This document shows positions 2,188 to 19,423 of a stretch of 21,024 nt of DNA, piece by piece. The notes below the pieces were generated by a model. The model saw nothing but the letters and a program-made list of their open reading frames with translations. It did no database searches and was not told where the DNA came from. Position 1 is the first letter of the stretch, and each line of letters starts with the position of its first letter. The translations under genes were made by a program, and so were the position numbers. Origin of the DNA: a virus; the IMG/VR virus record IMGVR_UViG_3300037189_024496, positions 1-21,024 of that record, one strand, 5' to 3'.

Positions 2188-2532
2188 ATGAGTTATTTTG
2201 AAAGTTATCAGCAAACAGTATTTTTCTTCCCAGCGCCGCTGACAATCCCTGGGGTTACGGACGCTTATGACGTTTATACAACTAACTATCTTTCAACGCG
2301 TAATTATACTTTAACCGCAATTGTTCAAGACATTGATACTAATGTTATTGTTCGTTTAGAAGGCAGTCTAGATGGAACTAATTATGCTGCCATGATTTCT
2401 AATACCATCAGTGTTAATGGTGTGTATACCTATAACGTTAGTGGCTTCCCTATGAAAAAAATTCGTGCTAACTTTCTGCAGCGCACTGGCGGCAATAATG
2501 CAATTGTTACATTCCAAATGGCTGCCAATTAA
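2188..2532 (+). CDS. Small beta-sandwich virion protein (114 aa)
   Basis: ATG start 44 bases after the 440-residue protein. The segment VRLEGSLDGTNYAAM followed by KKIRANFLQ has the same layout as the central domain of the upstream protein (FQVSNDNTNW then VRARFTAY). The two may therefore share a carbohydrate-binding or decoration-type fold; this is inference from spacing and a few residues. It is AT-rich, unlike parts of its neighbour. It is the last gene of the first plus-strand block, and its stop overlaps the convergent oxygenase gene by 4 bases. Confidence 0.6.
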   Translation: MSYFESYQQTVFFFPAPLTIPGVTDAYDVYTTNYLSTRNYTLTAIVQDIDTNVIVRLEGSLDGTNYAAMISNTISVNGVYTYNVSGFPMKKIRANFLQRTGGNNAIVTFQMAAN

Positions 2533-3320
2533 ATTAAAGACCAGCTTCGGAACCACTTTGTAATTACATACTTATTTCCACTTATTGGTGGACAGGCTTC
2601 ATGCAGTGTTTTGGGATTTGGAATTCCGTTTTTGTAAAGGTTATTCCAAATAACTGCCATGCCTTTTTTCGGTTTAATCTTTTTATTAAGCGCCAGGAAA
2701 GATGTTTCTCCGCCTTCTTCAACATCATTTAAATAACACATAAAAGTATAAGTACGCTGCCCCATCCACTCTGTATACACCTTATATTCTTTTGTTATTG
2801 GTGTAAAATAATCGCAATGTTTTTTATAGTACTGCCCTGGCTTGTACTTTTGAGATTGAATTGTTTCCCCAATGAAAGGATTGACTCCTAAAAAGTTACA
2901 AATTTTTTTATCTAATTGGTTGTAAAAAGGAGAAGCAAGGTAGTGCAGGTCTGCTGTTTGACTAGTACGATAGTTTGAAATTTTGTTATTATCTTCAGGA
3001 TTGGAAACTACAGAAGGCCGTAAATTTTGATCAACTAAGGATATCAATGTTCCACACTCTTCTGTAGATAAAAAATTATCAATAGTTCCAATCTGAGTAA
3101 AAGGGAAATTAAACCAATCAACGGGTTTTTCTTTGAAGTTATTATAAAACCATTTGTAATCAATTTTATTAGGCGCTGTTTTAAAGTTGCATAGCTGGAC
3201 TAACTGATGAATTTGTTCAAGTGAGCAGCCATATTGCGTCTTGAAATGCCGAAATACTTGGGTTTTGCTGGCGCCAGAAACAGCAGCCTTCATGAAATCT
3301 GTCGCCAGTTCCGCGCTCAT
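2529..3320 (-). CDS. 2-oxoglutarate/Fe(II) dioxygenase, prolyl 4-hydroxylase type
   Basis: A 263-residue protein on the strand opposite its neighbours, starting at ATG. Residues about 78-260 carry the prolyl-4-hydroxylase-like double-stranded beta-helix. The iron ligands are H168 and D170 (KKHCDYF) and H240 (TLHEACPP), and K250 in GNKYVITKW is placed to bind 2-oxoglutarate. The segment TYTFMCYLNDVEEGGETSF is the typical core strand region. These enzymes hydroxylate proline or other residues and turn 2-oxoglutarate into succinate. The N-terminal 60 residues are not recognised. Such oxygenases are common in cyanophages, with substrates mostly unknown. A nearby collagen-like protein (642-821) is a possible but unproven substrate. 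Confidence 0.88.
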   Translation of the reverse strand: MSAELATDFMKAAVSGASKTQVFRHFKTQYGCSLEQIHQLVQLCNFKTAPNKIDYKWFYNNFKEKPVDWFNFPFTQIGTIDNFLSTEECGTLISLVDQNLRPSVVSNPEDNNKISNYRTSQTADLHYLASPFYNQLDKKICNFLGVNPFIGETIQSQKYKPGQYYKKHCDYFTPITKEYKVYTEWMGQRTYTFMCYLNDVEEGGETSFLALNKKIKPKKGMAVIWNNLYKNGIPNPKTLHEACPPISGNKYVITKWFRSWSLI

Positions 3321-3464: not shown

Positions 3465-3626
3465 ATGTCAAGTCAAGCCCCCGCTTCACGCATTTTTCTA
3501 AAACAGTACGTTTCAGAACGCCTACCCCAGTTACATCAAGGTGATTTTGAGGCTCCAGGTGATCCACCTAGCTTCACAGTGGATCAACGTTATGTCCCGA
3601 TTCACGACCCGACTTATCGGGTTTGA
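3465..3626 (+). CDS. Small conserved-type protein of unknown function (53 aa)
   Basis: ATG start. The protein begins MSSQAPASRIFLKQYV and ends RYVPIHDPTYRV, is rich in Pro and polar residues, and has no membrane segment or metal motif. Its stop (TGA) overlaps a TTG that opens the next frame (TTGA), so the two genes look translationally coupled. The 144 bases upstream (3321-3464) hold no other gene and should carry the control region of this plus-strand block, although no convincing promoter was identified. No family is recognised. Its pairing with the NblA-like gene is the only hint to a role. Confidence 0.6.
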   Translation: MSSQAPASRIFLKQYVSERLPQLHQGDFEAPGDPPSFTVDQRYVPIHDPTYRV

Positions 3627-3898
3627 CATTTTTTAAATCACGGCTGTTAGAATTACGCTATGGATTGGGCGATTTGATGGACGCCAATGGTCTGAACCTT
3701 CCAATGGATGCTGAATTCGCTATCCATGCAGCCGCTTTTGCCATCCGTGAGATGGACAGAGACGATTTAGAAGAGAACTTTTTAGACCTTCTTCATCAAC
3801 GTGCTGTGGACCGACAAATGTTTTTAAGCATTTTGAAAGATCACGGCATTGATGCCGACATCAAATTCAATTACCTCACGCAAAGCCAACTCTCCTAA
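3623..3898 (+). CDS. nblA: NblA-like phycobilisome-degradation adaptor (candidate)
   Basis: A 91-residue protein. The TTG at 3623 overlaps the previous stop; an in-frame ATG lies at codon 18. Residues about 26-77 (from LPMDAEFAIHAAAFAI to LKDHGID) follow the layout of NblA: L-x-x-(E/D)-x-x-F-x-(I/L), a helix ending in a Met followed by (S/D)R(E/D), then two helical turns and a final ILK/LLK-H-x-x-(G/L)-(I/L)-D. NblA binds phycobiliproteins and recruits the Clp protease to dismantle the light-harvesting antenna. Phage-borne nblA is known from Microcystis phages and from an uncultured marine cyanophage. The N-terminal extension of about 25 residues and the C-terminal tail are unusual for NblA (typically about 60 residues). 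The match is by eye, so another short helical cyanophage family remains possible. Confidence 0.5.
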   Translation: MTFFKSRLLELRYGLGDLMDANGLNLPMDAEFAIHAAAFAIREMDRDDLEENFLDLLHQRAVDRQMFLSILKDHGIDADIKFNYLTQSQLS

Positions 3899-3903
3899 CA
3901 ACA

Positions 3904-4290
3904 ATGGCCGTCACTCGTACTATTAAAGGCACCCTGGATAAACTGCAAGTCAGTGGGGGTACCGAAATCACCTACCTGGGACCGACAACTTCAGGTAATG
4001 TTGGGGATTTAACTCGTGCATTTCGTGTAAATCCAGCCAGCACTGGCGACATTATTGTAAAGATTGACAAAAGCGCTGCTTTAATTGACATTGAAATTTT
4101 TCAAGAAGATTCCTATACTGCAGGCTCACCTCCGACTGGTTATTTTAAATTCTTCAACATTTTCAAAGCAGGAAAAGGTAAGGGTGCAGTAGCTGTTACC
4201 GTCACTAACGCTGCAAAGGACTATATTGTGTTGATGACTTTTGATGATTATAGTGAAGCCTCCTACGTCGGTAGCGTTGTCGTCCCCTAA
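3904..4290 (+). CDS. Beta-rich virion-type protein, possibly PPC-like
   Basis: A 128-residue protein with an ATG 5 bases after the upstream stop. The order is a short N-terminal strand (MAVTRTIKGTLDKL), then RAFRVNPASTGDIIVKID, then FKFFNIFKAGKGKG, then VTNAAKDYIVLMTFDDYSEASY. Alternating strands ending in a (Y)-(I/L)-V-L-x-(T/S)-F-D-D element resemble bacterial pre-peptidase C-terminal (PPC) or similar jelly-roll domains that decorate secreted or surface proteins. It overlaps the next gene by 14 to 47 bases depending on the start used there. A structural role is inferred from position; no catalytic motif is seen. Confidence 0.55.
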   Translation: MAVTRTIKGTLDKLQVSGGTEITYLGPTTSGNVGDLTRAFRVNPASTGDIIVKIDKSAALIDIEIFQEDSYTAGSPPTGYFKFFNIFKAGKGKGAVAVTVTNAAKDYIVLMTFDDYSEASYVGSVVVP

Positions 4291-4987
4291 AAAATACAGC
4301 AGCCCTTTTCTCAGCGATACAGCCGTTAAATTAATCCAATATTACACTCCGGCCAGAACCCAATGTGGTTTTGGCCGTTTTGCTGCCTATAAAACGGAAC
4401 ATGGGGAATGGTGCATCGGATATGGAAGCAAGAGAATTGGTAAGCGCTGGGTCGGTGCTTTTACTAGAGCAACTTTAAAAGAAATTGAAGAGCAGCTGGT
4501 TCGAGACCTTGAGGAATTTGCTCCAAAGGTGGCGCATTATGTCGCCATGCCAACTAATTTAAAAAGACGAGCGGCGCTTCTCAGCTACGCTCATAGTATT
4601 GGATTGGCTGCTTTTAAAGAGTGTCGCCTCTTGGAACTGATCAATTCATATGCTTCTAAGAACGCAATCATTAAAGAGTGGAGCCCCTACATCAATGTTA
4701 AATATCGTTACGCAGACCCCTTTTTAAAAGAGCGTCGGCGCGTTGAACTTAATACATTCTTGGCGCCAGACGATCAAGTTCCGCTTTTTACCAAACATAA
4801 GTGTCCCTTAAAGCATTGCCTGCTTAATATAGGAGAAACTTATATGGGCACACCCAATCAAATCAAGGCAATTGAGTACTTAGAACGAAAAGTTTTGGAA
4901 TGGGATCCCACTGGAGAAACTATTCGGCGGTTTTTTCGATACTGGAATCAACCCCAAGGTGGGCTGGGATCTCCAAAGAATTTGTAG
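4244..4987 (+). CDS. GH24 lysozyme-fold protein with degenerate active site
   Basis: Residues about 25-175 follow the phage lysozyme (GH24) layout. YKTEHGEWCIGYGS corresponds to the catalytic-loop strand, then comes a helix with EEQLVRDLEEF, then AALLSYAHSIGLAAFKECRLLELIN and RRRVELNTFL, all standard C-lobe landmarks. The catalytic Glu-Asp-Thr triad of T4 lysozyme is not preserved. The Glu position falls in LIQYYTPAR (Thr), the Asp position is Thr and the Thr position is Cys, and there is an insertion before the loop. About 65 extra residues follow the fold. It may be a divergent endolysin or a non-catalytic virion protein. The start is uncertain: ATG at 4244 overlaps the upstream gene by 47 bases, and TTG at 4277 would overlap it by 14. 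Confidence 0.65.
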   Translation: MIIVKPPTSVALSSPKKYSSPFLSDTAVKLIQYYTPARTQCGFGRFAAYKTEHGEWCIGYGSKRIGKRWVGAFTRATLKEIEEQLVRDLEEFAPKVAHYVAMPTNLKRRAALLSYAHSIGLAAFKECRLLELINSYASKNAIIKEWSPYINVKYRYADPFLKERRRVELNTFLAPDDQVPLFTKHKCPLKHCLLNIGETYMGTPNQIKAIEYLERKVLEWDPTGETIRRFFRYWNQPQGGLGSPKNL

Positions 4988-6830: not shown

Positions 6831-7427
6831 TTAAGAAATTTCAGCAGGAACTTTTTCTTCTGAGGAGAGTCGAATGAAATCCGATAACCCAGAACGCTTC
6901 AAGGTTTCCCGAATTTTTGGCAATGGGCAATAAATAACGACTTGTTTATTTAGATTGCCCATTTTTTTGATGAGTTTACCGTTTTCATCTTTAAGCTTTG
7001 TTAGCTCATTTTGCCTGATTAGGTACTCCGCTACACAACGATATCTGCGTTTGGTTTGTAAATCAATATCGGTAAACCGTTCACAAATTGTGGCAGGTTG
7101 CATGTCACTAAACGTGATTCTGATTTGATCTGCTAGGGATAGTCCTAAGATTATGTCATTGCTGCTAGTTTCGTACCCTTTTAAGAGTTCAAGGTAGCGT
7201 TGCAGGTCTGGCGTTTTAAAGCTACCTGAGGGAGGAATAAACATGCTGATTTGCTCAGCCAAAGAAGGTTTAAGCTTTTCTTTATAATTCTCTACTGTTA
7301 CGTCGGGAATGTTAAGGTCTGTAAAGCGATAGCTCAAATAACTCCGTGGTGCTTTAGGAGAATCAATAATGTATTCTTCACTTTCCTCCTCTTCCAGGAG
7401 AGTGTCATCCCAATAATCTTGTTCCAT
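6831..7427 (-). CDS. Hypothetical protein, acidic N-terminus (198 aa)
   Basis: ATG start. The first 25 residues are strongly acidic (DDTLLEEEESEEY). Residues about 50-115 are helical (LAEQISMFIPPSG, LQRYLELLKGYE), and residues about 125-165 form a basic helical stretch (KRRYRCVAEYLIRQNELTKLKDENGKLIKK). The C-terminus has a hydrophobic strand (KQVVIYCPLPKIRE). An acidic tail plus a basic helical region could mean nucleic-acid or protein binding, but no fold is recognised. It lies in a run of four minus-strand accessory genes. Confidence 0.6.
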   Translation of the reverse strand: MEQDYWDDTLLEEEESEEYIIDSPKAPRSYLSYRFTDLNIPDVTVENYKEKLKPSLAEQISMFIPPSGSFKTPDLQRYLELLKGYETSSNDIILGLSLADQIRITFSDMQPATICERFTDIDLQTKRRYRCVAEYLIRQNELTKLKDENGKLIKKMGNLNKQVVIYCPLPKIRETLKRSGLSDFIRLSSEEKVPAEIS

Positions 7428-19033: not shown

Positions 19034-19423
19034 ATGATAAAAAACTATTTGTGCAGAGCGTTGAATGAGGTTGTGGGACGCCACGTTATTGTAGAGCTTT
19101 TGGGCGGAAATCCGAATCTCCTCAACGATGAGAGGTACATTGTCGCCATACTGAGAGAAGCAGCCGAGCGGGCTGGTGGCACCGTCCTCAACGTGAGCTC
19201 CCATAAGTTCACACCTCAAGGCGTAACTGCTTTGGCACTATTGTCTGAAAGCCACCTTTCGATCCACACTTGGCCCGAACATGGTTACGCTGCAGTCGAT
19301 GCATTTACCTGCGGTTCACACACGGATCCGCAGCTGGCGTGTGATTTTCTAAAGAAATCCTTGTTCTGTACTGAGGAGAAGGTGCGGGTACTAGATCGTG
19401 GAATGGCTGTTAGCGTGAGCTAA
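19034..19423 (+). CDS. speD: S-adenosylmethionine decarboxylase proenzyme
   Basis: A 129-residue protein with an ATG start. The enzyme makes decarboxylated SAM, the aminopropyl donor for spermidine. It is made as a proenzyme that cuts itself between Glu72 and Ser73 (SESHLSIHTWPE) to form the pyruvoyl cofactor. The conserved His78 and Cys93 (DAFTCGSHTDP) are present, and the length matches prokaryotic SpeD. speD is a known auxiliary metabolic gene of marine cyanophages, thought to support polyamine supply during infection. It is divergent from the nuclease gene, with 77 bases between starts, and no clear promoter was identified. Confidence 0.95.
   Translation: MIKNYLCRALNEVVGRHVIVELLGGNPNLLNDERYIVAILREAAERAGGTVLNVSSHKFTPQGVTALALLSESHLSIHTWPEHGYAAVDAFTCGSHTDPQLACDFLKKSLFCTEEKVRVLDRGMAVSVS

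Follow-up and report, generated by a model that had tools for sequence, protein, structure and literature searches.

Organisation of the locus and start of the NblA-like gene

The DNA analysed here (the window, a 21-kb virus record of 21,024 nucleotides) contains an open frame of 91 codons, counted from a TTG, at positions 3623-3898 on the plus strand. An earlier note on this DNA had read the whole frame as a phage-encoded NblA-like protein with two features claimed as new, an N-terminal extension of about 25 residues and translational coupling to a small upstream gene; neither holds. Judged by alignment of its relatives, the NblA-like gene is the shorter frame at 3677-3898 (+), which starts with the ATG at 3677 and encodes 73 amino acids; the start is supported by 76 distinct homologues, and the assignment to NblA by profile homology and a structure model (below). 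The methionine aligned with ATG 3677 is common to nearly all relatives, with GTG in its place in a few genes of the type carried by Synechococcus phage S-EIV1 (the S-EIV1 type). Upstream of this shared position the relatives diverge or meet in-frame stops, and we therefore place the true start at ATG 3677. The supposed extension is interrupted by an in-frame stop in L002-L007, the six closest divergent relatives. Across the 76 distinct sequences, the open stretch upstream of the shared methionine ranges from 0 to 38 codons and mostly does not exceed 13; a start codon at least 10 codons upstream occurs in only five, two of which are the window and the near-identical contig L001, that is, the same gene. 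The in-frame stops and the lack of a usable upstream start codon in nearly all relatives rule out the extension as part of the protein, and positions 3623-3676 (+) are non-coding leader DNA; the apparent conservation of the "extension" arises because this leader is itself conserved and carries a promoter-like element. Purifying selection on the NblA-like gene is indicated by a median dN/dS of 0.12 over the 14 comparisons with finite dS, dS being saturated in most comparisons.

Upstream, at 3465-3626 (+), lies a conserved small gene of 53 amino acids with the motif ...YVxERLPxLxxGxxExPxDxPxFTVDQRYxP. Its protein had no match in Pfam, PHROG or NCBIfam, and the gene is missing at the corresponding place in several groups of relatives. 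The partner gene named in the earlier note is thus real, with homologues in 87 loci, but its proposed translational coupling to nblA is not supported: it ends 50 nt before ATG 3677, and the promoter-like element lies between the two. The coupling was apparent only because the TTG at 3623 had been taken as the start.

The nblA-like gene lies in a lysozyme cluster. A conserved 128-amino-acid gene (3904-4290, +), with no significant match to a Pfam or PHROG family, directly follows nblA in a conserved gene order, and is followed in turn by a T4-type lysozyme or endolysin gene of uncertain start (4241-4987, +; Pfam PF00959, E=5e-13; PHROG endolysin). The nblA-like gene therefore stands two genes before the lysozyme in the window's type; in S-EIV1 it stands directly after it. 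Tail-type genes lie upstream of nblA, and the conserved, syntenic upstream neighbour on the minus strand (2529-3320) encodes a 2OG-Fe(II) oxygenase (Pfam PF13640, E=7e-18). An oxygenase cluster of the 2OG-Fe(II) type is also found near the nblA of phage S-SCSM1.

The leader contains an extended -10 promoter-like element, TCACGGCTGTTAGAAT, at 3638-3653 (+), which corresponds to a conserved pattern, TCANNNCTGNTANNAT, in related loci. In the window, its TG occupies 3645-3646 and its hexamer TAGAAT 3648-3653, with the ATG 23 nt downstream, and the pattern fits an extended -10 promoter (TGnTAnnAT). When the flanking stretches of related loci were scanned (568 kb, 75 distinct loci), all 49 occurrences of TCANNNCTGNTANNAT (49/49) lay just upstream of nblA; the exact string GCTGTTAGRAT was present in 83 of the related loci compared, once in each. 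Alignment of the sequences on the element shows 95-100% conservation at its T-G, T-A and A-T positions; with two exceptions, the 12-base core lies 21-25 nt from the ATG. TAGAAT or TAAAAT occurs at a similar distance in several S-EIV1-type genes as well. Within the window alone, GCTGTTAGRAT with two mismatches allowed was found 11 times against 10.7 expected, a chance frequency that rules it out as a general promoter of this phage. The element derives its meaning from conservation upstream of one gene, nblA, and not from frequency in the window. We infer that it is a host-type extended -10 promoter of nblA, from which the gene would be transcribed on its own.

Relationship to NblA

The earlier note had picked out by eye an NblA-like segment at residues 26-77 of the open frame, and weak NblA matches do fall there, at residues 26-71 and 25-72. 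Taken singly, the window protein lies below all curated NblA cut-offs. It scored 15.5 bits against the NCBIfam NblA model (NF045916), for which the curated cut-off is 100 (E=0.024 for the 91-aa form and E=0.015 for the 73-aa form), its best PDB chain was 3cs5 (E=0.031), and it matched no Pfam family, including PF04485, and no PHROG. Neither the window protein nor one relative gave a match by direct tblastn against annotated phages, even at E=10.

At the profile level, the proposed homology is borne out. The protein has approximately 330 relatives in viral contigs. With a profile of 10 close relatives, the two NblA structures already took the top two ranks in the PDB (0.0022 and 0.013), and a 67-member profile matched 3cs5 at E=4e-7 and 1ojh at 1.3e-5, both of them NblA, with the next chain at 0.66. 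Of these 67 members, 62 reached E<=1 with the NCBIfam NblA model (best 1.8e-8). The PF04485 check that had been proposed for the window protein gave no match for that protein itself, but 21 of the 67 members did match (best 9e-6). Since 24 members match PRK08217 (NF006072) as well (best 5e-4), single-sequence E-values are noisy here. In profile-profile comparison with 11 cyanobacterial NblA sequences, we obtained P=1.1e-6 for the window's type alone, P=2.5e-7 for the S-EIV1 type and P=2.4e-9 for both types together; in a column-shuffle control of 200 trials, the maximum score was 19.8, as compared with 35.0 observed for the window's type. A reverse search of 244 cyanobacterial genomes with the subfamily profile found five places, four of which coincide with PF04485 genes, while the fifth is an NblA-like frame of 64 residues that aligns like NblA. 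Together, these comparisons indicate that the window gene is an NblA by remote homology: shared ancestry holds, with the curated family cut-off not passed.

The predicted structure is in keeping with this assignment. AlphaFold, run on 67 sequences, modelled a helix-loop-helix hairpin with helices spanning residues 10-24 and 28-55 (pLDDT about 90 in the core, mean 79.8); this run supersedes an earlier one on 10 near-identical sequences (pLDDT 62). Eleven of the 67 rows were S-EIV1-type homologues; as the input contained neither cellular NblA sequences nor templates, the model was not shaped by cellular NblA. NblA is a small protein, of 63 amino acids on average (PMC4103541), with a helix-loop-helix fold (PMC4103541, PMC7966870), and the window protein, with its 73 amino acids and two predicted helices, agrees in size and fold. 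The structure prediction that the earlier note had called for thus gave a two-helix hairpin for the monomer, and the family profile matches NblA. A Foldseek search with the monomer model recovered no NblA from the PDB and gave no significant match in BFVD, which is weak evidence against NblA given a query that is a 46-residue hairpin.

Compared with cyanobacterial NblA (PF04485, NF045916; PDB 1OJH, 3CS5), a core of roughly 50 residues aligns without internal gaps at about 19% identity, and the window protein falls below the curated cut-offs. Common to both are LxxxxxF close to the first helix, D/S-R-E/D in the turn and a second helix that is long and terminates in (L/I)K, within a predicted helix-loop-helix. 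In contrast to cyanobacterial NblA, the window's type has no aromatic residue at the WGL position, where it carries HGI, and it has about 15 additional, conserved residues at the protein end. This C-terminal tail, HGIDAxIxFNxxTxxQxS, is conserved beyond the NblA core, with HGIDA invariant in the window's type; S-EIV1-type proteins have an acidic C-terminal tail. Residues I52 and K54 of the window protein align with L51 and K53 of Anabaena NblA, which we take to be its C-terminal phycobiliprotein-binding residues. K54 is invariant in alignments A1-A3 of the window's type and absent in the S-EIV1 type, and the two types may therefore differ in target. The C-terminal tails of the two types, which NblA lacks, could tune the target.

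Phage nblA is already known from Microcystis, Planktothrix, marine and estuarine cyanophages. The NblA proteins of the Microcystis myophages Ma-LMM01 and MaMV-DC are likewise phage-encoded but much closer to host NblA (54 bits with the A4 profile, as compared with about 12-13 bits for the window family profile), and their gene overlaps nrdA, whereas the window family gene lies in the lysozyme cluster. Marine cyanophage NblA has been described by Nadel et al. 2019 (via PMC9602691); such NblA (S-SCSM1 ORF237, QFG06501.1) also belongs to phages of picocyanobacteria and was recognised by distant-homology methods only. QFG06501.1 had no match to the window-family profiles. None of the profiles matched the cyanopodovirus Syn5, which was therefore rejected as a possible source of a related NblA. 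By these sequence comparisons, the window family is a new, very divergent branch of nblA, some members of which may already figure in the environmental data set of Nadel et al. 2019.

An nblA-like core gene in the S-EIV1-like lineage

The primase/helicase of the window has its best match in Synechococcus phage S-EIV1 (36% over 98% of its length). Other matches to S-EIV1 are speD (52%), a tail-fibre-like gene (43%), the gene g6831 (53%) and the exonuclease g18075 (38%), and these common replication and structural genes place the window phage among the S-EIV1-like viruses. The S-adenosylmethionine decarboxylase gene (19034-19423) lies near the primase, as in S-EIV1. Strongly conserved, common to S-EIV1 and without a PHROG match, g6831 (6831-7427) is a good marker of the lineage.

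Cultured S-EIV1 carries a counterpart of the nblA-like gene beside its lysozyme, followed by the same genes as in the window's type. This counterpart, AHV82245.1 (KJ410740.1, 73902-74222; L091:41902-42222), is annotated as "hypothetical protein" and has 31 relatives in viral contigs. It shares a homologous core with the window protein (E=1.7e-5 in a search of the S-EIV1 ORF set; profile P=7.5e-9 between the two types). The two proteins are about 28% identical; unlike the window protein, AHV82245.1 has an acidic C-terminal tail and lacks both the HGIDA tail and the conserved lysine.

To assess how general the gene is within the lineage, we fetched contigs by means of the unrelated neighbour gene g6831 (alignment A7), a choice of bait that avoids circularity. 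All 62 contigs that extend 4.5 kb or more towards nblA (62/62) contained an nblA-like gene, 2.8-3.4 kb from g6831. These testable contigs were drawn from the best 80 of more than 500 relatives, and the most distant members are therefore under-sampled. The nblA-like gene is thus fixed in position and universal in the contigs tested, and we assign it to the core gene set of the S-EIV1-like cyanophages.

Among 16 large relatives, psbA was present in four and hli-like genes in four. Together with the primase/helicase match to S-EIV1 and the S-adenosylmethionine decarboxylase gene, these genes point to a cyanobacterial host. In the contig behind L107 (G273:C1:63595-64498), psbA is split into two overlapping frames, 63595-64275 and 64220-64498, perhaps through an intron, a frameshift or an assembly error. 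A survey of marine cyanophage genomes reported hli and ptoX in environmental genomes of the S-EIV1 group and lists no photosynthesis gene for S-EIV1 itself (PMC5332604).

Proposed function and its alternatives

In the host, the small protein NblA targets the light-harvesting antenna for breakdown. It binds phycobilisome rods, core subunits and ClpC (PMC7966870), and other phage nblA genes are reported to cause antenna loss on expression (PMC9602691). We consider it probable that the window gene encodes a divergent phage NblA that acts in the same way during infection. The 73-residue helix-loop-helix protein would form a dimer, which, by homology, would bind phycobiliproteins together with the host chaperone ClpC; the phycobilisome would then be handed to the host Clp protease and the antenna lost. 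The amino acids freed and the lowered light absorption could benefit the phage.

Among the alternatives, the one with most in its favour, though still unlikely, is that the NblA fold has been retargeted, such that the protein binds ClpC or a phycobiliprotein and delivers some other protein of the host, or shields the antenna during infection by blocking the host's own NblA. The great divergence from host NblA points this way, as do the C-terminal tails (a conserved HGIDA... tail beyond the NblA core in the window's type, an acidic one in the S-EIV1 type) and the occurrence, in some relatives, of psbA and hli-like genes, which sustain photosynthesis. However, the alignment to NblA spans the whole core and takes in the lysine at the Anabaena K53 position, and the other phage NblA proteins tested promote antenna loss (PMC9602691). 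We regard as distinctly improbable that the protein is instead a lysis or virion accessory factor with a function unrelated to NblA. Its place close to the lysozyme, which it precedes by two genes in the window's type and immediately follows in S-EIV1, with tail-type genes upstream, would suit such a role; yet no membrane-spanning stretch is evident by eye, which argues against a holin, and the gene has its own conserved promoter-like element and a specific NblA profile match.

A chance resemblance between NblA and a short amphipathic helical hairpin would account for the sub-threshold single-sequence scores and the negative Foldseek result. This explanation is close to refuted, since the profile search of the PDB and the shuffle control favour NblA, the reverse matches fall reciprocally on NblA genes and two subfamilies align with NblA over their full length. 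Thus, degradation of the host antenna by a divergent phage NblA is the reading that we prefer.

Phage nblA is usually described as an occasional auxiliary gene. Here, all testable contigs of a widespread lineage carry a divergent nblA at the same position, preceded by a single conserved promoter-like element. Standard annotation misses such genes, as the "hypothetical" label of the S-EIV1 copy illustrates. We tentatively suggest, as a possibility that goes well beyond the proposed function, that in the S-EIV1-like lineage an NblA-derived protein has become an obligatory core gene with its own promoter and a new tail, and that antenna remodelling or the hijacking of ClpC may be essential to infection, with a target that is possibly not phycocyanin. 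S-EIV1 and its host provide an isolated, testable system in which to ask whether dismantling of the antenna is essential to infection.
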